From: an uncultured Roseovarius sp. | Lineage (GTDB): Bacteria; Pseudomonadota; Alphaproteobacteria; Rhodobacterales; Rhodobacteraceae | Length of the DNA: 64,000 nucleotides | Direction: 5' to 3' | Assembly (NCBI GenBank): GCA_947499555.1 | Contig: CANMOU010000003.1 | Span: 62,001 to 126,000, forward strand | Part shown: positions 3,347-20,155 of the stretch, piece after piece | How the letters are laid out: every line of letters begins with the position of its first letter | Numbering within the stretch: position 1 is the first letter of the stretch | The notes under the pieces: model-generated | What the model saw: only the letters and a program-made list of their open reading frames with translations | The model's database searches: none | Told to the model about the DNA's origin: nothing | Translations under genes and position numbers: made by a program

Positions 3347-3505
3347 AAAGCAAAATAGTCTTGTTTGGATCAAAATCGGTTGACTTTTGGATCGCATCTG
3401 GGAATCGTTATCGTAGGGGAGTTTTTGCGCTCTCTGCCACCAAACAAGAATTCGCGGTTTACAGGCGTCAGACCTGTGGCTTGCACAACATCAGGGAGTT
3501 TAATC

Positions 3506-4984
3506 GTGGCCGAAACTGATCTCGAAAGATTCGTAGAAGCGAAAGGGCGCGCCGAGAAAATCAAGGAAGTGCGGAAGATGATTGATGCCAAGGGCATCGA
3601 GTATCTCTATCTGCAATTCGTCTCGGTCACCGGCAAAATCATGGGCAAAGGCATTCCCGCCGATCACTGGGAAAGCGTCGCCATGAAAGGCTTTCAGTTG
3701 GTCTATGGTGCCACGGTGAACCTCTTTACAGACCGGGCGGGCAACTATCTGGGTTACGGGCCCGAGGCTGCCGAGCTTGTGGGCATCCCCGAACCCGAGA
3801 CCTTCATGCAGCTGCCTTGGGCGCCGACCATCGGCCGGTTCTATTGTACGCTCTTCCGCAACCGCGAAGAAAAGGAAAATCCGGGTGGTTACCTGACCTC
3901 GGATGGCCGCGGCAACCTTCGCCGGATGCATGAAGACTTCCAGAAAAAGCATGGTCGCAGCCTTCGGATCGGCACCGAGCCCGAGATGATGTGGCTGAAA
4001 TTCGATGAGAACGGCAAGCCGAAGGACGGCTACTCCAAGCCCTACTGCTACCATATCGACCAGTTTGAATCGCTGCGTCCGGTCTCCATGCAGGTGATCC
4101 GCTATGCCCGCAAGATGGGGCTCGACATGATCCAGGGCGACCACGAGGATGCGCCCGGCCAGCTGGAACTCAACTGGATGTTTGACGACGTGCTGCGCAA
4201 TGCCGACCGTCTGACCACTTATCGCCAGATCTGTGCTCAGGTGGCGCGGGAAAATGGCATCTTCGCCTGCTTCATGACCAAGCCCTTCATGGGTGTGTCC
4301 GCCTCGGGTTGTCACCACAACATGTCGCTCTGGCGTGGTGGGGAAGACCATTTCGTCAAATGCGGTAACGATGAAAACGACCTGCCCGGCATGAAAGAGA
4401 ACTACATGTATGTGCGTGGCGGTGAAAACACCTTCATGCCCGACGATGACGATCCGCAGATGCCCGGCAAGGAAGGGCTGGAGGCGATCGGCGGCGTGGT
4501 TCACCACCTGCAGGCACTCACGGCCATCGGTTCCTCGACCGTCAACTCGTACCGCCGTCTCTGGGACACTGGGTTCTGGGCGCCTATCTTCGCCGATTGG
4601 GGCTTCCAGAACCGTACAACCGGTCTGCGCGTCTCGGCTCCGGGCCGGTTCGAATACCGCTCGGTGGACAGCATGGTGAACCCGTATCTGATGGGCTCGT
4701 GCCTGCTGGCTGCCATGGATGACGGCATCGACAACAAGCTCGATCCGGGTGAACCAGAAGAACGTAACATCTACGAGGCCATCAAAGCCGGCAAGCAGGT
4801 GAAGAAACTGCCGATGTCGCTCGGTGAAGCTCTGGATTTCCTTGAAAACAACGAAGTCGTGCAGCGTGGTCTGCCCGGTGAGATGTATCGCCTGTTCCAT
4901 GAATATAAATACGACGAATTTGCGCGCTTCAACGCAACCGTCACCGATTGGGACAGCGAAACTTACATGGAATGTCTTCCCTGA
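3506..4984 (+). CDS. Glutamine synthetase family protein (GlnT / gamma-glutamylmethylamide synthetase-like)
   Basis: With a GTG start at 3506 (AGGGAG site just before it) the protein has 492 residues. An in-frame extension to 3365 has no support. It has a GS beta-grasp domain followed by the catalytic domain, with GTEPEM (metal ligands), HEDAPGQLELN, SASGCHHNMSLW, STVNSYRRL and FEYRSVDSMVNPYL. It should ligate an amine to the gamma-carboxyl of glutamate using ATP. Next to it lie split glutamate-synthase-like genes, which is the arrangement of the gamma-glutamylmethylamide / N-methylglutamate route, but true GmaS/GlnT proteins as I know them carry EDANGQFE where this one has EDAPGQLE. Ammonia is therefore at least as likely a substrate as methylamine. 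It is probably regulated by the divergent GntR protein. Confidence 0.8.
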   Translation: MAETDLERFVEAKGRAEKIKEVRKMIDAKGIEYLYLQFVSVTGKIMGKGIPADHWESVAMKGFQLVYGATVNLFTDRAGNYLGYGPEAAELVGIPEPETFMQLPWAPTIGRFYCTLFRNREEKENPGGYLTSDGRGNLRRMHEDFQKKHGRSLRIGTEPEMMWLKFDENGKPKDGYSKPYCYHIDQFESLRPVSMQVIRYARKMGLDMIQGDHEDAPGQLELNWMFDDVLRNADRLTTYRQICAQVARENGIFACFMTKPFMGVSASGCHHNMSLWRGGEDHFVKCGNDENDLPGMKENYMYVRGGENTFMPDDDDPQMPGKEGLEAIGGVVHHLQALTAIGSSTVNSYRRLWDTGFWAPIFADWGFQNRTTGLRVSAPGRFEYRSVDSMVNPYLMGSCLLAAMDDGIDNKLDPGEPEERNIYEAIKAGKQVKKLPMSLGEALDFLENNEVVQRGLPGEMYRLFHEYKYDEFARFNATVTDWDSETYMECLP

Positions 4985-5000
4985 GGCAGACCATGCTATT

Positions 5001-5026
5001 GGCGGCGGGTTAAGGAACTCGCCGCC
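5001..5026 (+). promoter_or_regulatory. Intercistronic hairpin
   Basis: GGCGGCG (5001-5007) pairs with CGCCGCC (5020-5026) in the 81-base gap between the synthetase and the amidotransferase gene. Only GCTTT follows, so it is more likely an RNA-stabilising or attenuating hairpin than a full terminator. Confidence 0.4.
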
Positions 5027-5065
5027 GCTTTACACGAATACGCAACCTAGAGGAGGCGCTTCCAG

Positions 5066-6001
5066 ATGTGTGGAATTGCTGGATTAATTCACAAGGGCAA
5101 GAGCAGCTCTGTCGGATCAGAAATGACCGCCATGCTTCAGGCCTTGAAACACCGGGGGCCTGACAGCACCGGCTATGCGGTGTACGGCACCCCAACCGAG
5201 GGCGATTACATCATGCGCCTCAAGGTGGCCGAGGCCGAAGACATGGAGAAAGGCCGCGGCATTCACCAGGTGATCAAGGACCGCATTGCCGAGGTGGAAG
5301 CCATTCTCAAAGAGCATGGGGCCAAAGTGAAATCCAAGGATGCGCCGCGGGAATATTCTCTGCGTTACGTGCTCAACCACAAGGGTGACACGGGCGAGAT
5401 GGCCGCGCATATCGAGGAGACCGAAGGCGTCGAGATCCTGTCGATGGGCAATGGACTGGAACTGATCAAGGACCTTGGTGATGCGAGCGTCGTGTCGGAA
5501 GCCTATGGTCTGAATGACTTTCAGGGCACTCATGCGATTGGTCACACACGGATGGCGACTGAGTCGGACGTGGATATCAAATCGGCGCACCCCTACTGGG
5601 CGTTCCCTTACAATGATGTGAGCGTTGTGCATAACGGCCAGATCACCAACTATTGGATTATGCGCCGCGAGATGGAGCGTAAGGGCCACCGGTTTATGTC
5701 GAACTGTGACTCAGAGCTTCTGGCAGTCTACACGGCTCACAATCTCGCCAATGGCGTCTCGCTTGAAGACAGCCTGCGTCAGTCCATCGAAGAGATCGAC
5801 GGCGTGTTCACCTATCTGGTTGCGACCAAGGATCAGCTGGGCATGGCCAAGGACACGATGGCCGCCAAACCGCTGGTTCTTTACGAAAGCGACGATCTTA
5901 TTGCCATGGCATCGGAAGAAGTGGCGATCCGCGCGATCCTTCCAGAAGAGATCGACACGTATGACCCATATGACGAGGAGGTCCGGGTATGGCAGGCGTA
6001 A
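5066..6001 (+). CDS. glxB: Class II glutamine amidotransferase (GlxB / MgsA-like)
   Basis: This 311-residue protein begins MCGIAG, so Cys2 becomes the N-terminal nucleophile after Met removal. Other Ntn-amidotransferase motifs follow: LKHRGPDSTGY, GHTRMATES, HNGQITNY and NCDSE. It matches the glutaminase domain of glutamate synthase as a separate subunit, the form called GlxB in rhizobia and MgsA in N-methylglutamate synthase. It would release ammonia from glutamine or a gamma-glutamylamide and pass it to the GlxD synthase subunit. The start is preceded by AGAGGAGG. The next gene overlaps it by 13 bases, indicating coupled translation. Confidence 0.85.
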   Translation: MCGIAGLIHKGKSSSVGSEMTAMLQALKHRGPDSTGYAVYGTPTEGDYIMRLKVAEAEDMEKGRGIHQVIKDRIAEVEAILKEHGAKVKSKDAPREYSLRYVLNHKGDTGEMAAHIEETEGVEILSMGNGLELIKDLGDASVVSEAYGLNDFQGTHAIGHTRMATESDVDIKSAHPYWAFPYNDVSVVHNGQITNYWIMRREMERKGHRFMSNCDSELLAVYTAHNLANGVSLEDSLRQSIEEIDGVFTYLVATKDQLGMAKDTMAAKPLVLYESDDLIAMASEEVAIRAILPEEIDTYDPYDEEVRVWQA

Positions 6002-6858
6002 CTGACGCAGAACTGAAGGAAATGACCCAGGAAGAGCGGGTAACCGCTCTGGGCATGCGGACCGAGGCGCTGACGGGAAAATCCCTTTATGTGGAGTTTG
6101 ACCCAGACGCCGAGGAACGCTTTACCTATCCTTGGGCGCCGGATGTTGATTTCAACAAGCGCACCGAGATGGATTGTGACGGGATGACCACGACCGAGGT
6201 CAACTCCAACATCCGCGAGCTGATGGCGCAGGGCTATGGCACGGTTGTGCTCAAGAACCCGCGGGGCATGCACTCGTTGGGTGTCGGTATCCTCAGCAAG
6301 CTGAACCTGATCATCGAAGGTTCGACCGGTTACTTCGCGGTCGGCCTGATTGACGGACCGAATGTGCGCATCAATGGCCGGGTTGGCTGGTCCTGCGGTG
6401 AGAACATGATGTCCGGCACGATCATGATCGAGAAGAATGCTGGTTCCACCTTTGGTGCGGCCATTCGGGGCGGAGACCTTGTTTGCCGTGGCTCGGTCGG
6501 GTCGCGCACAGGTATCGACCAGAAGGGTGGCACGATCATCGTCGGTGGCGACACCGGCGCGCTGTCGGGCTTCATGATGCAGCGGGGGCGCATGGTTGTG
6601 TGCGGCAATGCGGGCAAGAACCTGGGCGACTCGATGTATGACGGCACGATCTTTGTCGGTGGCGAGATCAAGAGCCTCGGCGTGGACGCGGTTGAGGCGG
6701 AGCTGACCGATCTCGACAAGGCGTGGCTTACTCGGAAGCTCACCCAATATGGTCTGATGCCCGACAAGGGTGTGGATCATTTTACCAAGATCGTCGCAGG
6801 CAAGATGCTCTGGAACTACGACAATCTCGAGCCCACCGAGAAGAAGCTCATTCTGTAA
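5989..6858 (+). CDS. glxC: GXGXG-domain glutamate-synthase-like subunit (GlxC / MgsB-like)
   Basis: This 289-residue protein contains the glycine-rich right-handed beta-helix found at the C-terminus of glutamate synthase. Repeated G-x-x-x-G strands run through about residues 75-225 (for example NGRVGWSCGENMMSGTI and GGDTGALSGFMMQRG). It is not itself catalytic. In the large GltB chain this domain packs between the amidotransferase and FMN domains, and here it is a separate subunit. The ATG at 5989 lies inside the end of glxB after a GAGGAGG site. Confidence 0.85.
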   Translation: MAGVTDAELKEMTQEERVTALGMRTEALTGKSLYVEFDPDAEERFTYPWAPDVDFNKRTEMDCDGMTTTEVNSNIRELMAQGYGTVVLKNPRGMHSLGVGILSKLNLIIEGSTGYFAVGLIDGPNVRINGRVGWSCGENMMSGTIMIEKNAGSTFGAAIRGGDLVCRGSVGSRTGIDQKGGTIIVGGDTGALSGFMMQRGRMVVCGNAGKNLGDSMYDGTIFVGGEIKSLGVDAVEAELTDLDKAWLTRKLTQYGLMPDKGVDHFTKIVAGKMLWNYDNLEPTEKKLIL

Positions 6859-6914
6859 ATCGGCCCCGGCCCCCACGGGGGCTGTGCCATTCCATCTAGG
6901 AAAGGATATGACAT

Positions 6915-8279
6915 ATGGCTGACGGAGATCTGCCCAAGAAAAAAGCGCTGGACCGCGATGTAAACCGCATCGGCGACAGCTTTATCTTCCCGCCGCGTGT
7001 GATGGATGACATCCACATCAAGTCGGAACTGGGACGCTACCGGATGCGGGGCTTCTCGCTTTTCAAGAAAATCCCGCATTGGGATGACCTGACCTTCCTG
7101 CCAGGCACGCTGACGCGGTTCGTGATCGAAGGGTATCGCGAGAAATGTGAGACCAAGACCATCATCGGCCCGCGCGCCAAGGTGCCGCTGGAGCTGGATA
7201 TCCCGGTCTACATCACCGGCATGAGCTTTGGCGCATTGTCCTATGAAGCGAAGACGGCTCTGGCCCGGGGCGCCACAATGGCGGGCACGGCGACCTGCTC
7301 GGGCGAAGGCGGCATGATCCCTGATGAGCGGCGCTATAGTTCCAAGTGGTTCTACCAGTGCATTCAGTCGCGCTATGGCTTTAACCCCAACCATCTTGTT
7401 CTGGCCGATGGCTGTGAGTTCTTCATCGGCCAAGGCTGTAAGGTGGGTCTGGGTGGGCACCTGATGGGTCAGAAAGTGACCGACCAGGTGGCCGAGATGC
7501 GGTCACTGCCTGCTGGTATCGACCAACGCTCGCCCGCGCGGCACCCCGACTGGCTGGGTCCCGATGACCTGGCTCTGAAAATTCAGGAGATCCGCGAAGC
7601 GACCGATTGGCAAATCCCGATCCAGCTCAAGCTGGGCGCATCTCGTGTCTATGACGACGTGCGGATGGCTGTGAAATGTGACCCTGACAGCATCTATATC
7701 GACGGCATGGAAGGCGGCACGGGCGCGGGCCCACACCTTGCCACCGAAGACACCGGCGTGCCGGGCATGGCCGCGATCCGTCAGGCGCGTAAAGCGATTG
7801 ATGATCTGGGCAAACGTGGTGAGATCAGTCTTGTTTATGCAGGCGGCATTCGGAATGGCGCGGACGTGGCCAAGGCCATTGCGCTGGGCGCGGATGCGAT
7901 TGCCATCGGGCACTCGGCCATGATGGCGCTTAACTGCAACAAGGACATCCCCGAGGCGAACTATCCCGAGGAAATCGGCTCTGAGCCGGGCTATTGCTAC
8001 CACTGTCACACGGGCCGTTGCCCGGTGGGCGTGGCCACGCAAGACCCCAAGCTGCGCGAGCGGCTTGACCCGGATGAGGCAGCGGAACGCGTGTACAACT
8101 TCCTGCACACGCTGACCATCGAGGCGCAGCTCTTTGCCCGTGCGTGCGGCAAGACCTACCTGCACTCATTGGAGCCCGAAGACCTTGCAGCCCTGACGAT
8201 GGAAGCGTCGGCCATGGCCGGTGTTCCACTCGCAGGCACCAACCACACGGTCGGCGTTGAGGATTATCACCATCTTTAA
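6915..8279 (+). CDS. glxD: FMN-binding glutamate-synthase-like subunit (GlxD / MgsC-like)
   Basis: This 454-residue protein is the (beta/alpha)8 synthase domain of glutamate synthase. Visible features are ITGMSFGALSYEAKTALARG, GEGGM, the phosphate-binding DGMEGGTGAG and YAGGIRNGADVAKAIALGAD, and an iron-sulfur motif C361-x2-C364-x4-C369 followed by PVGVATQ. It should transfer ammonia or an amine onto 2-oxoglutarate or glutamate using FMN. No gltD-type small subunit is nearby, so the electron donor, if one is needed, is encoded elsewhere, or the reaction is a non-redox exchange as in N-methylglutamate synthase. A short GCCCCC/GGGGGC hairpin (6869-6883) separates it from glxC. Confidence 0.85.
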   Translation: MADGDLPKKKALDRDVNRIGDSFIFPPRVMDDIHIKSELGRYRMRGFSLFKKIPHWDDLTFLPGTLTRFVIEGYREKCETKTIIGPRAKVPLELDIPVYITGMSFGALSYEAKTALARGATMAGTATCSGEGGMIPDERRYSSKWFYQCIQSRYGFNPNHLVLADGCEFFIGQGCKVGLGGHLMGQKVTDQVAEMRSLPAGIDQRSPARHPDWLGPDDLALKIQEIREATDWQIPIQLKLGASRVYDDVRMAVKCDPDSIYIDGMEGGTGAGPHLATEDTGVPGMAAIRQARKAIDDLGKRGEISLVYAGGIRNGADVAKAIALGADAIAIGHSAMMALNCNKDIPEANYPEEIGSEPGYCYHCHTGRCPVGVATQDPKLRERLDPDEAAERVYNFLHTLTIEAQLFARACGKTYLHSLEPEDLAALTMEASAMAGVPLAGTNHTVGVEDYHHL

Positions 8280-10297: not shown

Positions 10298-10315
10298 TAC
10301 AAATTGTATACATAA
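10298..10315. promoter_or_regulatory. Palindromic candidate operator of the second GntR gene
   Basis: TACAAATTGTA (10298-10308) is a perfect 11-base palindrome, overlapped by TTGTATACA (10304-10312). FCD-type GntR regulators often bind TTGTATACAA-like sites, so this is a good candidate for autoregulation. It lies directly upstream of the regulator's GTG start at 10325. Confidence 0.5.
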
Positions 10316-10324
10316 GGTATTAAA

Positions 10325-11041
10325 GTGAGTCGCCCCTTGCCAACAGACCGCAAAAAAGACTGTCTCGAAGACATCAAGATGCGTATCCTGACGCTCGATA
10401 TTGCGCCCGGCAGTGATCTGGATGAGGCGTCGTTATGTGACCGTTACGGCATGTCGCGCACGCCAATGCGTGAGATATTCCAAAGACTTGGCGGCGAAGG
10501 GTTTGTCCAGCTGACGCAAAACCGGGGGGCCAAGGTGGCCTCGATGGATCTTGCTGTCATGCGCATGTTCTTTCAGACGGCGCCGGTGATCTATGCCAGT
10601 GTTGCGCGGCTGGCGGCTGAGAATCGGCGCATTTCTGATCTGGCACCGCTGCAGGCAACGCAAGAGACGTTTCGTGCCGCGACCGAGGGCGGAGATGCCG
10701 GGCAGGCGGCCCTTTTGAACCACCGTTTTCACCTCCAGATCGGAGAGATGGCGCGCAACCCCTATCTTCTGCCGAGCCTGAAGCGGATGCTGATTGATCA
10801 CACCCGGCTGAGCCAGACCTTTTACCGCCCGGCTTCGGAAGACGAAGCAGCGCGTGTGGCGCGGGCGGTTGAGCAGCATGAGGCGATGATCGCGGCCTTT
10901 GAAGCACAGGACGCGCAGCGCGCGGTGGATCTTACCATTGACCATTGGAACCTGTCGCGCGACCGGTTGGAGCAGTTCGTAACGCCCGACCCTCTGCCGA
11001 TTGACGTTTTGACCGAAAAAGGAGGCGCGCATGCAGTTTGA
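10325..11041 (+). CDS. GntR-family transcriptional regulator (FCD subfamily), first gene of the catabolic operon
   Basis: This 238-residue protein uses a GTG start (AAGG site at 10314-10317). Residues 15-75 form the winged helix with LCDRYGMSRTPMREIFQRL, and residues 85-215 form a helical FCD domain with the metal-ligand pattern N-H-R-F-H and D-H. It is codirectional with and overlaps the DapA-family gene by 11 bases, so it is part of the operon it probably controls. The inducer is unknown; a betaine or hydroxyproline derivative would fit the downstream genes. Confidence 0.85.
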   Translation: MSRPLPTDRKKDCLEDIKMRILTLDIAPGSDLDEASLCDRYGMSRTPMREIFQRLGGEGFVQLTQNRGAKVASMDLAVMRMFFQTAPVIYASVARLAAENRRISDLAPLQATQETFRAATEGGDAGQAALLNHRFHLQIGEMARNPYLLPSLKRMLIDHTRLSQTFYRPASEDEAARVARAVEQHEAMIAAFEAQDAQRAVDLTIDHWNLSRDRLEQFVTPDPLPIDVLTEKGGAHAV

Positions 11042-11939
11042 GGGCATCTGGACCCCGATCGTGACGCCCTATCATGCGGATTTTTCACTGAATGAGGGCG
11101 CGCTGGCCGAAACGGTGGAACTGCTGATCAAGGGTGGTGTGCATGGGATCATCGCAGCGGGTACGACGGGCGAATATTACGCGCAAACCTTTGACGAACG
11201 GGTCGACCTGGCGCGCAGGATCAAGACGCTGATCAAGGGGCGCGTGCCAATGGTGATGGGCACCGGCGCGATGCGGACCGAGGACAGCATAGACTACGCC
11301 AAGGCCGCAGTGGAGATTGGTGCCGATGCGCTTTTAGTGGCGACACCGCCCTATGCGGTGCCCACAGGGCGCGAGATTGCTTTGCATGCGCTCGCGATTG
11401 ACCGCGCCGCGAACCTGCCGGTGATGCTTTACAATTACCCCGGCCGGATGGGCGTGAACATGGATGAAGAAACGCTCGATCGGCTGGGCCGCAATCCGAA
11501 TTTCTGCGGGATCAAGGAAAGTTCGGGCGATATCAACCGTTTGCATATGATCGGCCGCGATTATCCGCATCTGGGCCTGCTGTGTGGCATGGATGACCAG
11601 GCGCTTGAATTCTTCGCCTGGGGCGCGCGCGGCTGGGTTTGCGCGGGGTCGAATTTCGCGCCCGAGGCGCATGTGGCGCTTTACCGGGCCTGTGTGCTGG
11701 AAGGTAACTTTACCAAGGGGCGTGCGATTATGTCTGCGATGATGCCGCTCATGCGCGTGCTCGAACAAGGCGGCAAGTTCATCCAGTGTATCAAGCATGG
11801 TCTGACCATGCGGGGCATAGAGGCCGGGCCGCCGCGCAAGCCGCTGCAACCGCTGAACAAGGATGACAGGCGGGCGCTTGAGGAAGTGATCCGCACAATG
11901 AACACCGCGATTGCGGCCATTGAGGGGGGCAAGACATGA
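11031..11939 (+). CDS. DapA-family aldolase/lyase (dihydrodipicolinate synthase-like)
   Basis: This 302-residue TIM-barrel class I Schiff-base enzyme has AAGTTGEYY (44-48 GTTGE), catalytic Tyr134 in LYNYPGRMG and the Schiff-base Lys162 in CGIKESSGD. The housekeeping DapA Arg138-type pattern is not evident. Family members in catabolic clusters include 4-hydroxy-1-pyrroline-2-carboxylate deaminase, which makes 2-oxoglutarate semialdehyde. The next gene is an aldehyde dehydrogenase overlapping by 4 bases, and an epimerase of the hydroxyproline-betaine type follows, so that deaminase role is my preferred hypothesis. Other sugar-acid aldolase roles remain possible. Confidence 0.8.
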   Translation: MQFEGIWTPIVTPYHADFSLNEGALAETVELLIKGGVHGIIAAGTTGEYYAQTFDERVDLARRIKTLIKGRVPMVMGTGAMRTEDSIDYAKAAVEIGADALLVATPPYAVPTGREIALHALAIDRAANLPVMLYNYPGRMGVNMDEETLDRLGRNPNFCGIKESSGDINRLHMIGRDYPHLGLLCGMDDQALEFFAWGARGWVCAGSNFAPEAHVALYRACVLEGNFTKGRAIMSAMMPLMRVLEQGGKFIQCIKHGLTMRGIEAGPPRKPLQPLNKDDRRALEEVIRTMNTAIAAIEGGKT

Positions 11940-13429
11940 CCGAGCTTCTGACACGCAAGGAATATGGCGCGATTGCTGCCGAGATTGACCTGCCGGCCGC
12001 ACCTTTCGTGGACGGCAAATTCCGCAAGGGATCAGGCCCGATGATGGAAACGGTGAACCCCGCCACAGGCGAGGTGTTAACGAAGGTGAGCACGGCAGGG
12101 CAGAAGGATGTGGATTTTGCCGTTGGGAAGGCGCGCGAGGCCTTTGATCGCGGAGAGTGGTCCAGGGCGCATCCATCGGAGCGCAAGGATGTGCTCATTC
12201 GCCTGTGTAAGTTGATCACGCGGCGACGGCATGAACTGGCGGTGATGGAGAGCCTCGACAGCGGTAAGCCCATCCGGGATTGCGAGATGATCGACATCCC
12301 CGAGACCATTCACACGATCAAATGGCATGGGGAGTTGATCGACAAAATCTATGATCAGGTGGGGCCATCGGGCGATGATGCGCTGAGCATGATCGTCCGC
12401 GAGCCCATCGGCGTGGTGGCCTGTGTGCTGCCGTGGAACTTCCCGCTTCTGATGATGGCGTGGAAGATCGGTCCGGCGCTGGCGGCGGGCAATTCGGTGA
12501 TCGTGAAGCCGGCGGAGCAGACCTCGCTTACCGCCTTGCGGCTGGCCGAAGTGGCGCATATGGCGGGCATCCCGCGCGGGGTGTTGCAGGTGTTGCCGGG
12601 CGATGGGCCGTCGGTTGGCGAACCGCTGGGGATGCACATGGATGTGGATATGGTGAGCTTCACCGGCTCCACCGAGACGGGCAAACGGTTCCTGCGTTAT
12701 GCTGCTGATTCCAATATGAAAAAGATCACGCTGGAATGCGGTGGTAAGAACCCCGCCGTGGTGCTGGAGGATGCCGAGAACCTCGATCATGTGGCTGAAC
12801 ATGTGGTCAACGCGGCCTTCTGGAACATGGGTGAGAACTGCTCTGCCGCGTCCCGGCTGATTGTGCATAAGGCGGTGAAAGAGCCACTACTGGAGCGGAT
12901 TGTGGCGCGCATGCGCGACTGGAAAACCGGCGATCCACTCGACCCGGCCAACCATCTGGGGGCGCTGGTGGATGCCGAACATTGCAAGAAGGTGGCAGGC
13001 TACCTTAAGGGCAAGGCTGTTGCGGGGGGCGGGAAGCCAAAGGGCAATTTTGTGGAGCCTACTGTCTATGAGGTCAAGAAGGCCGACAAGCGCGCCCGTG
13101 AGGAGATCTTTGGCCCAGTGTTGAGTGTCATTGAAGTGGCCAGCGAGGCCGAGGCGATTGAGCTGGCCAATGACACCGACTACGGGCTGGCGGCGTCGGT
13201 GTTCACTGGGAATATTCGACGAGCTTTAAGTGCCGCGAAAAACATACGCGCCGGTACGGTCACGGTGAATTGCTACGGCGAGGGCGATATCGCAACGCCC
13301 TTTGGCGGGTTCAAGCAATCGGGCTTTGGCGGGCGTGACAATGGCATTCATGCGCATGATCAGTTTACGGAAGCTAAGACGATCTGGGTGGATTTGAGTG
13401 ATCCGAAGGATGGGGATTTGGTGGGATGA
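11936..13429 (+). CDS. NAD(P)-dependent aldehyde dehydrogenase (PuuC/betaine-aldehyde type)
   Basis: This 497-residue enzyme has the full ALDH active site: N168 in PWNFP, E267 in LECGGKNP, C302 in MGENCSAASR, the cofactor segment FTGSTETGK and the C-terminal GGFKQSGFGGRDNG. The pattern DSGKPIRD...IP and the FTEAKTIW tail are closest to PuuC-like dehydrogenases of gamma-amino or semialdehyde substrates. In context it may oxidise 2-oxoglutarate semialdehyde or an amino-aldehyde formed by the FAD oxidase. It overlaps the DapA-family gene by 4 bases. The 91-base gap after it contains two palindromic repeats. Confidence 0.88.
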   Translation: MTELLTRKEYGAIAAEIDLPAAPFVDGKFRKGSGPMMETVNPATGEVLTKVSTAGQKDVDFAVGKAREAFDRGEWSRAHPSERKDVLIRLCKLITRRRHELAVMESLDSGKPIRDCEMIDIPETIHTIKWHGELIDKIYDQVGPSGDDALSMIVREPIGVVACVLPWNFPLLMMAWKIGPALAAGNSVIVKPAEQTSLTALRLAEVAHMAGIPRGVLQVLPGDGPSVGEPLGMHMDVDMVSFTGSTETGKRFLRYAADSNMKKITLECGGKNPAVVLEDAENLDHVAEHVVNAAFWNMGENCSAASRLIVHKAVKEPLLERIVARMRDWKTGDPLDPANHLGALVDAEHCKKVAGYLKGKAVAGGGKPKGNFVEPTVYEVKKADKRAREEIFGPVLSVIEVASEAEAIELANDTDYGLAASVFTGNIRRALSAAKNIRAGTVTVNCYGEGDIATPFGGFKQSGFGGRDNGIHAHDQFTEAKTIWVDLSDPKDGDLVG

Positions 13430-13443
13430 GCATCACGCTGCAC

Positions 13444-13502
13444 GTCCCGGATCCGATCCGGGACCTAAATGTGGAACGAGAGGCCCCGGATCAAGTCCGG
13501 GG
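13444..13502. repeat. Two CCGGATC-type palindromes in an operon gap
   Basis: GTCCCGGATC/GATCCGGGAC (13444-13464, 10-bp arms, 1-base centre) and CCCCGGA/TCCGGGG (13484-13502, 5-base loop) lie between the dehydrogenase and the methyltransferase gene. CCCCGGATCAAGTCCGGGG is a familiar dispersed palindrome in alphaproteobacterial genomes. A related copy in reverse sense is at 20268-20282. It is the only sizeable gap inside the operon. Confidence 0.7.
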
Positions 13503-13520
13503 CGCGAGGAGTCTAGGACA

Positions 13521-15074
13521 ATGACCGTTGAAGCCGTCGGCACCGTCCGGCGGGGACGTGGCGCGCGCAAGCAGGCGCGGCAGGCGCGGGATGTGACGAT
13601 GCTCCCTGCGCTTAAGCGGGGCATTCCGTTGACGGAGCCGATGGATGCCGAACAGATCGAGCGCATTGATAACGCCTCAATGGATATTCTGGAAAATGTC
13701 GGCGTGGTTTTTCGCGATGACATCGCTATCGCAGATTGGAAGCGCGCAGGCGCGGATGTGCGTGACGGGGACCGGGTACACCTGGATCGCGGGTTGGTGC
13801 GAGAGCTGATCAAGTCCATCCCCGAAACCTTCACCTACCACGCGCGCAACCCTGACAATACGCTACCGTTTGGAAAAGACCATGCGATTTTCGTGCCCAT
13901 GACCGGCGCGCCTTACCTGCGGGATCTGGATGATGTGCGCCGCAATCCGACGCTCGAGGATCTGGCGAATTTCCACAAGCTAAGCCACATGCTGCCCGCG
14001 ATGCATAGCTCGGCGCATCACATTGTCGAGCCCTATGATCACCCGATCAGCCAGCGGCACTTGCGCATCACCTATTCTTCGATGAAGCATTCCGACAAGA
14101 CGTTCATGGGCATGACGACAAGCCCCAAGAACGCCGAGGATGTGATAGACATGTGCGCCATCCTGTTTGGCGAAGGTTACATCGACACGCACCCGGTCGT
14201 GACAGGAAACTGCAATGGAAACAGTCCCCTAGTCTGGGATGAGACCATGTTGGGCGCGATGCGGGCCTTCAACAAGCGCAATCAGCCGGTGCTGTGCTCG
14301 CCCTTCGTTTTGGGAGGGGCCAACACGCCTGCCTCGGTCGCACCCACCGTGGCACAATTGAACGCCGAAGCGCTGAGCGCGCTGGCCTATACGCAAGTGG
14401 TGCGCAAGGGCTGTCCGGCGATCTACGGCCATTACCTTAGCACCGTCAGCATGAAGTCCGGCGCGCCCATGGCGGGCACGCCCGAGATTTCCCTCATGAA
14501 CCTGATGATTGGCCAGATGGCGCGTTACTACAAAGTGCCGTGGCGGTCGTCGAACACGTTGGGTGGGGCCAAGACGCTGGACGCGCAGGCGGGTTATGAA
14601 AGTGCCACCACCCTTATGGCCCTGCAAATGGCGGGCACCAATTACATGTGGCATTCTGCTGGATGGAACGAAGCGGGTATGCATTGTTCCATGGCCAAGT
14701 TCGTCATCGATGCAGAGCAGTGTGCGATGGCCTATCGCATGGCCGAAGGTATCCGTTGGGACGATTTCGACGAGGCGATTGCGGCGGTGTCGGATATCGG
14801 ACCGGGTGGGCATTACCTGGGCCATCCGCACACGTTAGAAAATTTCCAGCGCGCCTTCTTCATGCCAGAGCTGTTCGACAACAATTCGATCGAGCAATGG
14901 CAGGCCGAAGGGTCGGTCGAGGCCAATGAACGGGCCCTGAATTGCGCACGCCAGATGCTGAACGAGTATCAAGAACCCAAGCTGGATGAGGCCAAAAACG
15001 AAGCGCTTCTCGACTACATCGCCCGGCGTGAACGAGAAATTCCGGCAGCGGACGCGCTTAATCAGGAGTACTGA
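13521..15074 (+). CDS. Trimethylamine/quaternary-amine methyltransferase family protein (MttB superfamily, non-pyrrolysine)
   Basis: The ATG at 13521 (GAGGAG site at 13506) gives 517 residues; an in-frame extension to 13398 would run into the preceding gene. It is a TIM-barrel protein of the MttB superfamily, with YSSMKHSDKTFMGMTTSP, TGNCNGNSPLVWDETML and the late segment GTNYMWHSAGWNEAGMHCSMAKF. The frame has no internal amber codon, so it is of the pyrrolysine-free type whose known members demethylate glycine betaine, proline betaine or carnitine by transfer to a corrinoid protein. No corrinoid protein or reactivase lies in this window, which is odd for that chemistry. The stop overlaps the next start (TGATG). 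Confidence 0.85.
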   Translation: MTVEAVGTVRRGRGARKQARQARDVTMLPALKRGIPLTEPMDAEQIERIDNASMDILENVGVVFRDDIAIADWKRAGADVRDGDRVHLDRGLVRELIKSIPETFTYHARNPDNTLPFGKDHAIFVPMTGAPYLRDLDDVRRNPTLEDLANFHKLSHMLPAMHSSAHHIVEPYDHPISQRHLRITYSSMKHSDKTFMGMTTSPKNAEDVIDMCAILFGEGYIDTHPVVTGNCNGNSPLVWDETMLGAMRAFNKRNQPVLCSPFVLGGANTPASVAPTVAQLNAEALSALAYTQVVRKGCPAIYGHYLSTVSMKSGAPMAGTPEISLMNLMIGQMARYYKVPWRSSNTLGGAKTLDAQAGYESATTLMALQMAGTNYMWHSAGWNEAGMHCSMAKFVIDAEQCAMAYRMAEGIRWDDFDEAIAAVSDIGPGGHYLGHPHTLENFQRAFFMPELFDNNSIEQWQAEGSVEANERALNCARQMLNEYQEPKLDEAKNEALLDYIARREREIPAADALNQEY

Positions 15075-16180
15075 TGCGGATATCCGAGTTCCATATCTAT
15101 CACCATGATTTACCTGTAAAAAATGGCCCTTACACCATGTCGCACGGGCCGGTTTGGTCATTGGAAACGACCGTGGTTCGGCTGGTCACAGATCAGGGTG
15201 TCGAGGGCTGGGGAGAGGTCTGTCCCATTGGGCCACTATACGCGCCCGTACAGGCTAGTGGCGTTCGGGCTTTGCTGAATGACATCGGAGCGGGTCTGGT
15301 GGGTGTCGAGCTGTCGGTCAATGCGGTCAGCGCGGCGATTGATGTCCAGATTGAGGGTGGCAACTATGCACGCTCCGCCGTGGACATCGCCGTGCATGAC
15401 GCACTGGGCCAATCTTTGGGTGTCTCGGTGGCGACGCTTCTTGGCGGGGCCTATCAGACGCGCTTGCCGTCTTACTACGCGACGGGCATCGGCACGCCCG
15501 ATGAGATTGCCAGACTCGCACTTGATAAAGTGAACGAAGGCTATCCGCGCATTCAGATCAAGGCCGGAGGTCGCGACGTGGCCGAAGATATCGCCACGCT
15601 GCGCAAAGTATACGAGACCGTACGAGACAGAGCACGCATTCTGGTCGATCCCAACCGCGGCTTGAGCGGCAATGATGCCTTGCGGCTTTCGCGCGAGTGC
15701 CAAGACATTCCGTTTGTCCTTGAGCAGCCCTGCAACACGATAGAGGAGATCGCCCGCATCCGGCCGCTGATGCACCACCCCATTCATATCGACGAGAGCA
15801 TGGTCGATCTCAACACGGTCCTGCGTCTCGTGGGGGATGGGTTGGTGGACGGGTTCGGGATGAAGATCTCCCGTCTGGGTGGGTTGCGCCCGGCTTCGAC
15901 CTTTCGTGATGTCGCGGCTGTGAGGCGGCTACCGCATTCCTGCGAAGATAGTTGGGGGGGCGACATCGTCAACGCTGCTTGTGTGCATTTGGGTGCTACG
16001 GTGCGTCCGCGTCTGCTAGAAGGTGTATGGCTGGCGCAGCCTTATATCGAAGGCCACTATGCTCCAAACGGAGGCGTACGGATAGAGGGCGGCCATATCG
16101 CCTTGCCCGACGGGCCGGGCCTTGGCATTTCGCCTGATCCAGACGTCTTTGGCGCGCCTGCCGCGTCTTTCGGGGGTTAA
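15074..16180 (+). CDS. Enolase-superfamily racemase/epimerase, resembling 4-hydroxyproline betaine 2-epimerase (HpbD)
   Basis: This 368-residue protein of the mandelate racemase/muconate lactonizing family has an N-terminal capping domain and a barrel with paired lysine bases K163 (RIQIKAGG) and K264 (GFGMKISRLGG). The metal ligands are D192 (VDPNRG), E217 (LEQPC) and D240 (IDES). The N-terminus NGPYTMSHGPVWSLETT and the block LPSYYATGIGTPDEIA closely resemble, as I remember them, the roseobacter HpbD proteins that epimerise C2 of hydroxyproline betaine and proline betaine. Cis-3-hydroxyproline dehydratase is a related alternative. This is the most specific clue to the substrate of the operon. 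Confidence 0.8.
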   Translation: MRISEFHIYHHDLPVKNGPYTMSHGPVWSLETTVVRLVTDQGVEGWGEVCPIGPLYAPVQASGVRALLNDIGAGLVGVELSVNAVSAAIDVQIEGGNYARSAVDIAVHDALGQSLGVSVATLLGGAYQTRLPSYYATGIGTPDEIARLALDKVNEGYPRIQIKAGGRDVAEDIATLRKVYETVRDRARILVDPNRGLSGNDALRLSRECQDIPFVLEQPCNTIEEIARIRPLMHHPIHIDESMVDLNTVLRLVGDGLVDGFGMKISRLGGLRPASTFRDVAAVRRLPHSCEDSWGGDIVNAACVHLGATVRPRLLEGVWLAQPYIEGHYAPNGGVRIEGGHIALPDGPGLGISPDPDVFGAPAASFGG

Positions 16181-16183
16181 CCC

Positions 16184-17368
16184 ATGGGCGGACTGCCATA
16201 TCTCGATCTGGCAGACCCCGCTCTGTCCACTCGGGGGCCAGAGGTTTTGGCAGCGCGGGATACGCATTGGTGCGCGGAAACGCCCTTTGGCCTCGCGGTG
16301 CTGCGCTATCGGCAAGTGGGGAAGATCCTGCGCGACCGGCGCTTTCGCCAGGGCAGCCACAATTGGCCGGATACTGTTGGAATCAAAGGAAGTTTTGCTG
16401 ATTTCTGGCGCGCGTCTGTCATTGGCCGTGAAGGGGCAGAGCACCAGAAACTGCGCGCACTGGCCGTCCCGGCGCTCAGTGAGGGTTACGTGCTTGGCCT
16501 CAAGCCTGCCTTTGATGAGATTGCCGAAGATCTCTGTGCAGAGCTTCGTAAAACCGAGCGTTGTGAATTTCAGTCCGCCTTTTGTGAGCCCTTTGCGGGG
16601 CAGGCGATCACCACGCTTCTGGGCATGCCCAGAAGCGATTGGCCACTGGTGGCGCATAACGCTGCTGATCTGGGTCTTGCGATGGGAGTTGAGGCCCCGA
16701 AATACGAGGCGCGTTTCAACAAAGCCTGTGAAACGCTGTTTAATCTGGCCAATGATCTGGTCGCCAAGGTGCGGCGCGGCGAAGATGATAGCAGCTATGT
16801 TGCACGCATGGTGGTCGAATTTGATCGCAACGGTGATTGCACGCATGAAGAGTTGCTGAACACCATTGTGATCTCCATCTTTGGCGGGGTCGACACAACG
16901 CGGGCGCTTCTGGGCCTAGGCCTGTCACTGTTCATTGATAACCCAGACCAGTGGAAGGCCCTGCGCGCCGACGAAAACCTGATTCCTGCGACGGTAGAAG
17001 AGTTTATTCGTGCGCGCCCAACGACAACCTGGGCCACGCGCGAGGCGACAGAGGATGTGGAGATTGACGGTATTTCCATACGTAAAGGTAGGGTTGTTCA
17101 TTTACTTGTGCATGCCAGCGCTCGCGATCCGGAGATTTGCGAAGATCAAGCATTTGATATTACAGTAAAACGTCGCCTGCATTTTGGCTTTGGCGGTGGC
17201 GCGCATCATTGCATCGGGCATTTTGTTGCGCGCACAGACACCGCCTGTGCCTTGGTTGCACTTCGCAAGACATTCCGTACGGTTGCGTATGTAAGTGAGC
17301 CGAAGTGGCTGCCTGATAGTGGCAATACCGGCGCGTTAAGCCTGCCGATCAGATACGAGGTGGTGTGA
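16184..17368 (+). CDS. Cytochrome P450
   Basis: This 394-residue soluble bacterial P450 has the I-helix GGVDTT (234-239), ExxR at E273-R276, and the heme-binding FGFGGGAHHCIG with Cys343 as the thiolate ligand. No membrane anchor is present, so it depends on ferredoxin and ferredoxin reductase, and neither is encoded nearby. In this operon it could hydroxylate or oxidatively N-demethylate the substrate. It starts 3 bases after the epimerase gene and its stop overlaps the next ATG. Confidence 0.9.
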   Translation: MGGLPYLDLADPALSTRGPEVLAARDTHWCAETPFGLAVLRYRQVGKILRDRRFRQGSHNWPDTVGIKGSFADFWRASVIGREGAEHQKLRALAVPALSEGYVLGLKPAFDEIAEDLCAELRKTERCEFQSAFCEPFAGQAITTLLGMPRSDWPLVAHNAADLGLAMGVEAPKYEARFNKACETLFNLANDLVAKVRRGEDDSSYVARMVVEFDRNGDCTHEELLNTIVISIFGGVDTTRALLGLGLSLFIDNPDQWKALRADENLIPATVEEFIRARPTTTWATREATEDVEIDGISIRKGRVVHLLVHASARDPEICEDQAFDITVKRRLHFGFGGGAHHCIGHFVARTDTACALVALRKTFRTVAYVSEPKWLPDSGNTGALSLPIRYEVV

Positions 17369-18099
17369 TGCAATTCGAAGGCAAGACCGCATTGGTTACA
17401 GGCGCGGCCGGCGGTCTCGGCGCGGCTTTGGTGAGGGCGTTGCGGGCCGAAGGTGCAGTTGTGGCGGTTTCGGACCGCGACAGCAGGGGGGGTGATGCCG
17501 AAGCGCATCTTGATGGCGACCTGTTGGACGGCGCGTTCTGCGACGCCCTTCCAACCCTGGCGAGAGAGGCCTTGGGCAGCCTTGACATGGTGTTCAACAA
17601 CGCAGGCGTCATCACGCGCGGCGATATCACCACTGCAACAGATACCGATTGGCAGTTGACCATGGGTGTGAATGTCGAAGCGCCATTCCGAATTTGCCGC
17701 GCTGCTGTCCCGATCATGGCTGAGGCAGGCGGCGGTGTGATCGTGAATACCTGCTCTTGCTGGGGCCTGCGCCCCGGGGCCAATCATCCACTCTATGTCC
17801 TGAGCAAGGCTGCGTTGGCCTCTCTCACCCAATGCCTCGGCCGCGATCACGCCCATCAGGGCATTCGTGTCAATGCCGTGTGCCCGAATGAGGTGGACAC
17901 GCCCATGCTGCGCACCGGGTTTGCGATCCGGGGGCTCGACCCCGAGAAGGCTATTGAGGATCTTAACGCCAGTGTCCCGATTGGCCATATCGCCAGCCCG
18001 GAAGAGATCGTCGATGTCATGCTTTTTCTTGCCTCTGACGCCGCACGCTACATGTGCGGCGCATTGGTCGAGGTGAATGGCGGGAAGCCGGTGATATGA
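17368..18099 (+). CDS. Short-chain dehydrogenase/reductase (first of two)
   Basis: This 243-residue protein has a Rossmann fold with TGAAGGLGAAL as the nucleotide loop, NNAG, Ser in NTCSCWG and the catalytic YVLSK. It is a classical SDR that oxidises an alcohol or reduces a ketone with NAD(P). The ATG at 17368 overlaps the P450 stop, and its own stop overlaps the second SDR (ATGA). Two different SDRs in tandem suggest two alcohol steps or two stereoisomers in the pathway. Confidence 0.88.
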   Translation: MQFEGKTALVTGAAGGLGAALVRALRAEGAVVAVSDRDSRGGDAEAHLDGDLLDGAFCDALPTLAREALGSLDMVFNNAGVITRGDITTATDTDWQLTMGVNVEAPFRICRAAVPIMAEAGGGVIVNTCSCWGLRPGANHPLYVLSKAALASLTQCLGRDHAHQGIRVNAVCPNEVDTPMLRTGFAIRGLDPEKAIEDLNASVPIGHIASPEEIVDVMLFLASDAARYMCGALVEVNGGKPVI

Positions 18100-18827
18100 T
18101 TCATTTTAAGGGGAAAGTTGCGCTGGTCACCGGCGGATCGAGCGGCATGGGGGCGGCGACAGCGGCGCTTCTTGCCAAGGGTGGGGCGCGTGTCTTCTGT
18201 GCCCAACGGGGGGCGTCGGAGCATGAGGACATCGCAGCCGACTTCGCCAATCCAGAAGCGCCCAAAGAGGTGATCGATCAAGTCCGCGGACGGGCAGGCG
18301 CGCTAGACATCCTGATCAACAATGCCGGTGTCATGCGCGAAGGCACGGTTGAGGAAAGCTCTGAGGCCGACTGGCACCTGCAAATGCAGGTTAATCTGAC
18401 CGCGCCTTTCCTGCTTTTGCGCCACGCCATGCCGTTGCTGAAACAAAACGGTGGTGCAATTGTGAATGTCGGCTCGATTGAGGGGCTGGGATCAAACCCC
18501 CGCCACCCGGCTTACGGCGCGTCGAAAGCAGGCTTGCACGGGCTCACGCGCGCCGTCGCCGTTGATCATGGACCCGAAGGTGTGCGCTGCAACGCTGTGG
18601 CGCCGGGATGGATCGACACGCCACTCAACGAGGATTTCATCAACGGCATGCCCGATCCGAAGGCGTTTCGCGCCGAGATCGGTGGTATCCACCCCATCCG
18701 TCGCACTGGCGCACCCGAAGAAGTGGCCGAGCTGATCTGCTGGCTGGTCAGTGATGCGGCCCGTTTTGTCACCGGGCAGATCTGGACGATTGATGGCGGC
18801 CGGATGGCCCAGCTGAGCCTGCCATGA
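18096..18827 (+). CDS. Short-chain dehydrogenase/reductase (second of two)
   Basis: This 243-residue classical SDR has TGGSSGMGAAT, NNAG, VGSIEG and the catalytic YGASK, with C-terminal TIDGGR. An ATG at 18096 overlapping the previous stop is the natural start; the longer frame from 18054 lies inside the first SDR gene. It is about as long as its neighbour but clearly different in sequence, so not a recent duplication. Next to it, overlapping by 4 bases, is an FAD oxidase. Confidence 0.88.
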   Translation: MIHFKGKVALVTGGSSGMGAATAALLAKGGARVFCAQRGASEHEDIAADFANPEAPKEVIDQVRGRAGALDILINNAGVMREGTVEESSEADWHLQMQVNLTAPFLLLRHAMPLLKQNGGAIVNVGSIEGLGSNPRHPAYGASKAGLHGLTRAVAVDHGPEGVRCNAVAPGWIDTPLNEDFINGMPDPKAFRAEIGGIHPIRRTGAPEEVAELICWLVSDAARFVTGQIWTIDGGRMAQLSLP

Positions 18828-20155
18828 AGATCACCCAGATGCCCTGCGATCCCGGCGTGACCGGGTGGAATGCGATCCTGCCAAAGGCGGACGCGCCGCA
18901 GGTGTTGGAAGAGAAATGCAAGGCCGACTGGCTTGTCATCGGCGGTGGCTTTGCCGGTCTTGCAGCGGTGCGACGGCTTGGTCAGCTTCATCCCGAGGCG
19001 CGGATTGTTCTATTGGAGGCCAAGCGCATCGGCGAAGGCCCGGCCGGACGGAACTCGGGCTTCATGATCGATCTGCCGCATGATCTGGCGTCAGAGGATT
19101 ATGGCGGCGCGCTTGAAAAGGACCTTGCGCAGACACGGCTGAACCGCCGGGCGATTGCCTTTGCCACTGAAATGGCAGCGGAGTTTGGGCTGAGCGCAGA
19201 GGCGTTCGCCCGATCGGGCAAAACCAACGCGGCGGCGAGTGACAAGGGCCATCAGCACAACCTCGACTATGCAGCGCATCTGGCGGAGATGGGTGAGGCG
19301 CATGAGGTGCTCGATGCTGCCGCGATGAAGGCGCTTACCGGGTCGGACTACTATCGAAGCGGCGTCTACACGCCAGGCTCTGCGATGCTGCAGCCGGCGC
19401 TCTTCGTGCGAGGCGTGGCCAAGGGGCTGTCCAGCAACCGTGTGCGGATTTTTGAAAACACGCCGGTGGTTGGGTTGGAGCGGCGGGGCGATTGGGTCGC
19501 CACCACGCCTAAGGGTCAGGTCACGGCACCCAAAGTCATTCTGGCCGTAAATGGCCACGCCAACAGCTTTGGCCAGTTCAAAGGACGGCTGTTGCATGTG
19601 TTTCTTTATGGGTCGATGACCCGGGCTTTGACGGCGGATGAAATTGCCCGTCTTGGGGGCAAGGCCCGCTGGGGCCTTACACCGTCGGATCCCATGGGCA
19701 GCACCGTGCGCCGGATCAGTGGCACAGGCGGTGACAGGATAATCATGCGCAACCGCGTGACCTATGATCCGAGCCTGAAAGTGCCCGAGGCGCGTGTGAC
19801 CGCCATGGGTCGCACGCATGATAAGTCCTTAGCCGCACGGTTTCCGATGCTTAAGGGGGTCGAGATGGAATACCGCTGGGGCGGGCGGCTCTGCCTGAGC
19901 TGGAATGGCGCGCCGGCCCTGGGCGAAGTGGAGGAAGATCTTTATTCGGCCTGTTGCCAGAATGGGCTTGGTCTGGCGCGGGGGACATTGCACGGGATGG
20001 CTATGGCCGAGATGGCGTCGGGTCTTGGGTCAGAGATGGTTGGTGAGGTGATGGCTCAGGGTGAACCCTCTCGCCTGCCACCGATGCCGTTCACGATTAT
20101 CGGGGCAAATGCCACGATGAAATGGGGAGAGTGGAAGGCCGGGCGGGAGTTGTGA
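18824..20155 (+). CDS. FAD-dependent amine/amino-acid oxidoreductase (DAO family, PuuB/OrdL-like)
   Basis: This 443-residue protein has a FAD-binding GxGxxG segment VIGGGFAGLAAVRRL (about residues 39-53), the second FAD contact GPAGRNSGFM and the late FAD region YRWGGRLCLSWNGAPALGE. The family oxidises secondary amines or D-amino acids (gamma-glutamylputrescine oxidase, sarcosine or D-proline-type oxidases). In this operon it could oxidise the demethylated cis-hydroxy-D-proline product to a pyrroline carboxylate, the substrate of the DapA-family enzyme. It is the last gene of the operon; REP-like repeats follow. Confidence 0.85.
   Translation: MKITQMPCDPGVTGWNAILPKADAPQVLEEKCKADWLVIGGGFAGLAAVRRLGQLHPEARIVLLEAKRIGEGPAGRNSGFMIDLPHDLASEDYGGALEKDLAQTRLNRRAIAFATEMAAEFGLSAEAFARSGKTNAAASDKGHQHNLDYAAHLAEMGEAHEVLDAAAMKALTGSDYYRSGVYTPGSAMLQPALFVRGVAKGLSSNRVRIFENTPVVGLERRGDWVATTPKGQVTAPKVILAVNGHANSFGQFKGRLLHVFLYGSMTRALTADEIARLGGKARWGLTPSDPMGSTVRRISGTGGDRIIMRNRVTYDPSLKVPEARVTAMGRTHDKSLAARFPMLKGVEMEYRWGGRLCLSWNGAPALGEVEEDLYSACCQNGLGLARGTLHGMAMAEMASGLGSEMVGEVMAQGEPSRLPPMPFTIIGANATMKWGEWKAGREL

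Follow-up and report, generated by a model that had tools for sequence, protein, structure and literature searches.

A Roseovarius operon that most likely represents a corrinoid methyltransferase variant of the hydroxyproline betaine pathway

The Hpb pathway for hydroxyproline betaine, a compound that protects cells against salt, was reportedly worked out in Pelagibaca bermudensis and Paracoccus, in studies said to be those of Zhao in 2013 and Kumar in 2014. Here, we analyzed a window of 64,000 nucleotides from an uncultured Roseovarius sp. (positions 62,001 to 126,000 of the forward strand of CANMOU010000003.1, assembly GCA_947499555.1), in which positions 10325 to 20155 of the + strand encode a GntR regulator, a DapA-family enzyme, an aldehyde dehydrogenase (ALDH), an MttB-superfamily methyltransferase, an epimerase, a cytochrome P450, two short-chain dehydrogenases/reductases (SDR1 and SDR2) and an FAD-dependent enzyme of the DAO family. 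Judged from its sequence, this operon is most likely a variant of the known hydroxyproline betaine pathway that runs through a corrinoid methyltransferase. Like the Hpb pathway, it has an HpbD-type 2-epimerase and the lower steps of DAO, DapA-family enzyme and ALDH, and betaine transporters are found near related copies. However, the operon has MttB in place of the Rieske pair, a P450 where Roseovarius albus has HpbA, and two added SDRs.

The window and its genome also resemble the MtgBCD system of Ruegeria pomeroyi, as far as the available part of its description goes (PMC12478193), in having a pfam06253 methyltransferase in an aerobic roseobacter-type genome, MtgC-, MtgD- and MtgE-like proteins, and a DUF1638 protein. 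In the operon, however, MttB occurs together with an epimerase and enzymes for hydroxyproline; the two Ruegeria pfam06253 proteins were compared by description only. According to the same part of that paper, Ruegeria pomeroyi cannot use glycine betaine without MtgC and MtgD, and extra pfam06253 proteins may have further substrates. Eubacterium MtpB, the proline betaine methyltransferase in that account (PMC12478193), likewise compared by description only, shares the superfamily and the probable substrate class, but its host is an anaerobic acetogen. In the trans-4-hydroxyproline pathway, the available part of PMC4113996 describes a route to 2-oxoglutarate through D-amino acid oxidase (DAAO), a deaminase of the dihydrodipicolinate synthase (DHDPS) family and ALDH, which are also the families of the operon; there, however, a proline-racemase-superfamily enzyme epimerizes the free amino acid. 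Among the matches listed for open-license PubMed Central titles and abstract beginnings, none mentioned MttB and HpbD in one operon or an ectoine operon that includes a P450, a result that speaks for those texts only.

The list of open reading frames shows nine co-directional, tightly packed genes, and Pfam assigns a family to each, in agreement with the initial annotation of nine mostly overlapping genes; the lysine and cysteine residues that it had quoted for the DapA-family enzyme, ALDH and epimerase are present. Adjacent genes overlap by 1 to 11 bases or are separated by 3 bases, with the sole exception of a 91-base gap between ALDH and MttB. The MttB start, previously placed at 13398, was moved to 13521 on the basis of relatives 516 and 517 amino acids long, and the start of SDR2 was set at 18096. 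Since the ALDH and MttB genes overlap in a close relative (locus L066), the gap looks like an inserted repeat element. Two GC-rich palindromes lie within it, at 13444 to 13503.

We searched 293 genomes of the order, the own genome included, for the epimerase at E 1e-60 and found a match in 60. Besides the own genome, 25 had an epimerase relative of 54 to 61% identity and one had a relative of 44%; among these 26 neighborhoods, 18 contained MttB (77 to 91% identical) while 8 did not. In a scan of named genomes, the closest 80 of 405 epimerase relatives were kept, so that the locus counts lean towards the window's kind. Sixty-two of the 80 were full loci of at least 20 kb, the 18 shorter ones were set aside, and the identity thresholds were those set in the script. 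MttB was found near the epimerase in 54 of the 62 full loci. SDR1 and SDR2 were each present at 52 of these 54, DAO and ALDH at 49 each, GntR at 47 and DapA at 46, and 44 loci held all six together. Because 44 of the 54 loci are complete while each MttB genome holds a single MttB match, the association of the gene set is beyond chance. The operon type is real and widely conserved, and the MttB version is the commoner one among the epimerase loci examined, in the order sample (18 of 26) as in the full loci (54 of 62). Betaine ABC genes occur at 24 of the 54 MttB-bearing loci, which supports the proposed betaine substrate class. The P450 is present at only 5 of the 54, and we ruled it out as a fixed part of the module. 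Of the earlier view that the enzyme set is unusual, the part concerning MttB did not stand, as the MttB version occurs well beyond this operon, while the P450 was seen only in the window's genus group. On Leisingera plasmids (L148, 22462 to 28623), a second set adjoins the module and consists of LysR, Rieske, ALDH, zinc alcohol dehydrogenase and a second enolase-superfamily gene.

In PDB sequence matches, the window epimerase scored 487 bits with 4e8g, 4izg and 4j1o and 440 bits with 2pmq and 4h2h, while the next family reached 219 bits. We take these entries to be hydroxyproline betaine epimerases; their PDB names give the mandelate racemase family only. The epimerase is 56.5 to 58% identical to plasmid genes annotated as hpbD, 4-hydroxyproline betaine 2-epimerase, and falls in the HpbD clade. 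Its nearest NCBIfam model, cis-3-hydroxy-L-proline dehydratase (NF043002), gave 248.7 bits against a cut-off of 500, and in a control an annotated hpbD scored 245.1 bits with the same model. A sugar-acid or dehydratase role was ruled out by the PDB ranking and the NF043002 scores below cut-off; the earlier HpbD-like assignment thus held in the comparison with dehydratases that had been suggested as its refutation test. The sequence comparisons support an HpbD-type epimerase, with turnover of hydroxyproline betaine as its predicted activity. Lys163, Lys264, Asp192, Glu217, Asp240, Tyr56 and Trp319 were invariant in all 18 aligned epimerase rows and presumably comprise the catalytic lysine pair, the metal ligands, and the tyrosine and tryptophan with roles in HpbD. 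Since the same seven residues are also kept in three members of a 36% family, they mark an intact enzyme and do not discriminate HpbD. The window epimerase deviates at 20 positions where all 17 other rows agree, including H60Q, H96G, K100R, W180Y, Y238H and D291E, and at 11 further positions from a residue identical in 16 of the 17 rows. The closest relative is the epimerase of L066 (90% identity). While the epimerase has diverged, the adjoining MttB stays 86 to 96% identical to its Roseovarius relatives.

The lower part of the pathway has a homologous unit on Rhizobium etli p42f, in which GntR, DapA, ALDH and DAO are 47, 58, 63 and 51% identical to those of the operon, respectively. Near this unit are genes for a betaine ABC transporter, a Rieske pair, an NADH:flavin oxidoreductase and formaldehyde oxidation, and also one for a 4-hydroxyproline epimerase (581 bits, with 376 as the cut-off), the single clear case of a link between such a unit and a hydroxyproline epimerase. 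The R. etli unit and the described DAAO, DHDPS and ALDH route both support the hydroxyproline-type lower pathway proposed from the window alone. No NCBIfam model reached its cut-off with the operon ALDH among the matches listed (25 of 45), and no PDB sequence relative of DAO was found at E 1e-8. On a Yoonia plasmid (L167, 13308 to 21126), we observed a GntR-DapA-ALDH-MttB-DAO-BCCT order without the epimerase or the P450, which may serve an isomer whose C2 need not be inverted.

We then turned to the methyltransferase. MttB covers positions 2 to 500 of the 500 positions of the PF06253 profile. Its TIGR02369 score was 286 bits against a cut-off of 525, and its frame is open without TAG; the score below cut-off ruled out a pyrrolysine-type trimethylamine methyltransferase. 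The genome contains nine MttB-family genes, and the other eight are 25 to 42% identical to the operon MttB, which in the tree falls in one clade with the module MttBs (100/100), apart from the other paralogues of its own genome. In L153, an own-genome MttB paralogue (C5:89965-91443) directly adjoins an HpbA-family flavoenzyme gene (C5:88227-89879).

The MttB, HpbB and HpbA genes were searched genome-wide in 50 of the 80 genomes at E 1e-180, E 1e-80 and E 1e-100, respectively, the names HpbB and HpbC being assigned here from the Rieske pair in the hpbD neighborhood of P. pantotrophus. MttB was found in 45 of the 50 genomes, each with a single match (74 to 96%); the five negative genomes were Pseudomonas, Saccharopolyspora, two Streptomyces and Paracoccus onubensis, and four of these five epimerase genomes without MttB had the Rieske protein HpbB. 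HpbB was also present in 23 of the 45 MttB genomes and not matched in the other 22, so MttB and HpbB are not mutually exclusive. In P. onubensis, the genes are arranged as Rieske (HpbB-like)-reductase (HpbC-like)-epimerase-SDR1-SDR2, followed on the opposite strand by DAO-ALDH-DapA-GntR and then by ProV-ProX-GlxA, which is the Cereibacter module with the Rieske pair at the MttB position; no MttB match was found in the P. onubensis genome at E 1e-180. The two P. onubensis proteins have 56 and 62% identity, respectively, to those of the P. pantotrophus pair, whose genes adjoin the annotated hpbD and hpbA. By Pfam, none of the nine genes of the window operon encodes an HpbB/HpbC-type Rieske pair, and its genome has no close HpbB, the best match to the P. 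pantotrophus Rieske protein being 34% over about half of its length. This gene swap suggests that the corrinoid (MttB) route and the oxygen-dependent Rieske route can stand in for each other within one pathway, and it agrees with the MttB part of the initial proposal, in which MttB and/or a P450 replaces the Rieske demethylases.

The corrinoid partners are encoded elsewhere in the genome, which has one PF02607 corrinoid protein, its gene preceded by an MtgE-like gene and followed by a DUF1638 gene. The MtgC-like corrinoid protein scored 198.8 bits against the 370 cut-off of the glycine-betaine MtgC model, while the MtgD-like protein scored 404 bits (cut-off 259) and the MtgE-like protein, named betaine-homocysteine methyltransferase, 585 bits (cut-off 338).

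A second slot swap was found at the P450. In R. albus, an intact HpbA homologue of 677 amino acids (47% identical to annotated HpbA) lies between the epimerase and SDR1, the gene order being otherwise equal. Similar HpbA copies adjoin the module at three more loci (L071, L077 and L124), and no module-query match was found in the 13 to 18 kb around the copies in five other genomes (L195 to L199) whose HpbA is of the type seen in the R. albus slot (a sixth genome, G308, was left out); the L199 copy contains four TGA stops. The own genome gave no HpbA match above 36% except for two stretches of about 50 residues. A genome-wide mutual exclusion of P450 and HpbA was ruled out, since three of the five P450 genomes hold an HpbA of 44 to 45% elsewhere.

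Both SDRs contain the Ser-Tyr-Lys triad. In Shinella and on S. meliloti pSymA, tandem SDRs lie beside a proline-racemase-superfamily gene, together with DAO, DapA and ALDH. One SDR of each tandem is SDR1-like (46% in Shinella, 44% in S. meliloti), and its partner is not clearly SDR2-like. The proline-racemase-superfamily genes there reach no cut-off, with the top score from the trans-3-hydroxyproline dehydratase model. Two SDRs thus adjoin an enzyme that may act on C2 in two contexts, which points to stereo-inversion of the hydroxyl, and the SDR pair probably interconverts the configuration of the C4-hydroxyl via a ketone.

We consider it likely that the operon is a GntR-controlled catabolic operon for 4-hydroxyproline betaine, with substrates, reactions and step order as proposed below. 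The gene families, the conserved set, both slot swaps and the corrinoid partners come from sequence and genomic context, from which we infer the roles of the P450 and the SDRs. The HpbD-type epimerase would invert C2 of 4-hydroxyproline betaine to give the D form. MttB would move one N-methyl group to the MtgC-like corrinoid protein, and the MtgD-like protein would pass it to tetrahydrofolate, while the P450 (HpbA in R. albus) may strip the methyl group from the remaining N-methyl amino acid. DAO would convert cis-4-hydroxy-D-proline to pyrroline-4-hydroxy-2-carboxylate, which the DapA-family enzyme would deaminate to 2-oxoglutarate semialdehyde, and ALDH would oxidize the latter to 2-oxoglutarate. 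The two SDRs may bring other stereoisomers into the same route by interconverting the C4-hydroxyl.

Several observations weigh against this pathway. Because the epimerase deviates at 20 otherwise invariant positions, it may have changed its substrate. The operon itself has no gene for a transporter, a corrinoid protein or a redox partner of the P450, two of the 54 MttB loci have no SDRs, and an S. meliloti pSymB stretch, taken to be the hydroxyproline locus, gave only a 26% DapA match and carried no annotation. The Rieske and HpbA names in other genomes derive from resemblance to the hpbD neighborhood of P. pantotrophus; in NCBIfam, the Rieske pairs of P. onubensis and P. pantotrophus are both nearest to glycine betaine monooxygenase, and the R. 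albus protein and annotated HpbA have an OYE-family model as the best match, all below cut-off. In eight of the 45 MttB genomes, the epimerase locus contains no P450 and the search for HpbA, which scored up to 23 candidates in each genome, gave no match at E 1e-100, which leaves the second demethylation unexplained there. Finally, in two genomes, G176 and G090, the P450 orthologue lies behind ectA-ectB-ectC-ask, and no epimerase was found in them at E 1e-60.

The ectoine context bears most directly on the P450. Orthologues (74 to 80%) occur in four other genomes among the 293, all of the window's genus. In G090, EctA, EctB, EctC and aspartokinase score above their NCBIfam cut-offs; in G176, a gene for an AraC-type (GlxA-like) regulator lies between ask and the P450; and neither genome has an EctD match at E 1e-10, while the congener G170 has ectB followed by an EctD above cut-off. 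In the own genome, no ectB was found at E 1e-80. The ectoine-P450 genes in G176 and G090 and the betaine operon in the window, L066, L068 and L072 have the same flanks, glxD and nitrilase upstream and MerR and a copper ATPase downstream; elsewhere, L067 shares the downstream flank only, L079 one upstream gene only, and L073 and L052 neither. Among these operon loci, L068 belongs to the cultured R. litorisediminis and L079 to the cultured R. aestuarii. In the P450 tree, the ectoine-linked proteins fall inside the betaine-operon clade, with weak inner support. In these two congeners (L173, 9156 to 16159, and L174, 6109 to 11170), ectABC-ask-P450 thus occupies the betaine-operon site, an osmolyte-gene hotspot with a possible P450 ectoine hydroxylase. 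The ectoine-linked orthologues without EctD make osmolyte hydroxylation a live rival to N-demethylation. The main substrate might accordingly be plain proline betaine, hydroxylated by the P450 at C4 or C3 as EctD does ectoine, with MttB and DAO handling the N-methyl groups. Proline betaine is also demethylated by aerobic bacteria. A case in other bacteria is MtpB, named in PMC12478193. We regard this alternative as unlikely, since the R. albus operon has an HpbA homologue rather than a hydroxylase at the P450 position, and since most module loci, with the P450 at only 5 of 54, must reach hydroxyproline without it. Distant P450s (40 to 44%) adjoin glutamine-synthetase-like genes in six of seven Rhodobacterales neighborhoods and in two of four plasmid neighborhoods (Ruegeria and Paracoccus, but not Gordonia and Rhodococcus), which hints at amine substrates. 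For the P450 as a demethylase, as first annotated, the slot swap in R. albus speaks in favor and the ectoine context against, and on context we put N-demethylation slightly ahead of C-hydroxylation, without conviction. A more daring reading, which we hold to be doubtful, makes the Roseovarius P450 a dedicated osmolyte modifier with two settings at one chromosomal site: demethylation or hydroxylation of (hydroxy)proline betaine in betaine catabolism, and hydroxylation of ectoine where it follows ectABC-ask and EctD is not found.

Marine hosts also encounter betaine lipids, and another alpha-amino betaine, such as homoserine betaine from algal betaine lipids, could be the substrate, with the DapA-family enzyme as an aldolase and ALDH oxidizing the released aldehyde. 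Aldolases and lyases are among the DapA-family models that gave matches below cut-off, and the window epimerase is divergent; however, HpbA/HpbB-type genes and a 4-hydroxyproline epimerase accompany the lower unit in R. etli, and annotated hpbD belongs to the clade of the epimerase, so that we find this substrate very unlikely. It seems most improbable that 3-hydroxy- or dihydroxyproline betaines are the true substrates in place of the 4-hydroxy compound, with their ring hydroxyls as targets of the SDR pair and the P450. While the tandem SDRs of Shinella and S. meliloti and the trans-3-hydroxyproline dehydratase score of the neighboring racemase-superfamily gene fit that idea, the DAAO, DHDPS and ALDH steps to 2-oxoglutarate are those described for 4-hydroxyproline (in the available part of PMC4113996), and R. 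etli ties the unit to a 4-hydroxyproline epimerase above cut-off.

Regulation of the operon may involve the palindrome TGTATACA, which lies 12 bases before the proposed GTG start of GntR and which we regard as a candidate GntR operator. In 1.40 Mb of 67 stretches, it has 21 exact sites, 20 of them within 90 bases upstream of the start of GntR or a neighboring GlxA-type gene, while 47 of the 67 stretches lack an exact site; as a weak control, a single mononucleotide shuffle of each stretch gave 8 sites in total. Among the nine operon genes (Table 1), the P450 has the lowest GC content at third codon positions (0.58). Upstream, positions 3365 to 8279 encode a glutamine-synthetase-like protein, a glutamine amidotransferase and glutamate-synthase-like proteins, a cluster that presumably resembles the N-methylglutamate synthase type.

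Table 1. Features of the Roseovarius operon, in window coordinates, with proposed functions
Feature	Position	Strand	Family match or remark
Palindrome TGTATACA	10305..10312	not assigned	candidate operator of the GntR regulator
GntR/FCD regulator	10325..11041	+	FCD 65.4 bits, GntR 41.3 bits (Pfam)
DapA-family enzyme, proposed pyrroline-4-hydroxy-2-carboxylate deaminase, Lys162	11031..11939	+	DHDPS 213 bits
Aldehyde dehydrogenase, proposed 2-oxoglutarate semialdehyde dehydrogenase, Cys302	11936..13429	+	Aldedh 534 bits
MttB-superfamily methyltransferase without pyrrolysine, proposed (hydroxy)proline betaine:corrinoid methyltransferase	13521..15074	+	PF06253 709 bits
HpbD-type betaine 2-epimerase (predicted), Lys163/Lys264/Tyr56/Trp319/Asp192/Glu217/Asp240	15074..16180	+	MR_MLE N and C
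Cytochrome P450, heme Cys343, proposed N-methyl(hydroxy)proline demethylase or osmolyte hydroxylase	16184..17368	+	p450 (Pfam)
SDR1, Ser130/Tyr143/Lys147	17368..18099	+	adh_short
SDR2, Ser127/Tyr140/Lys144, 37% to SDR1	18096..18827	+	adh_short
FAD-dependent DAO, proposed cis-4-hydroxy-D-proline oxidase or dehydrogenase	18824..20155	+	DAO 143 bits

The operon suggests a specific substrate class for one of the nine MttB-family genes of this genome. If the osmolyte-modifying role of the P450 is true, the enzyme would be a counterpart of both ectoine hydroxylase and the flavin N-methylproline demethylase. If the proposed pathway is true, the supply of B12 would bear on the marine turnover of proline-type betaines, beyond that of glycine betaine.

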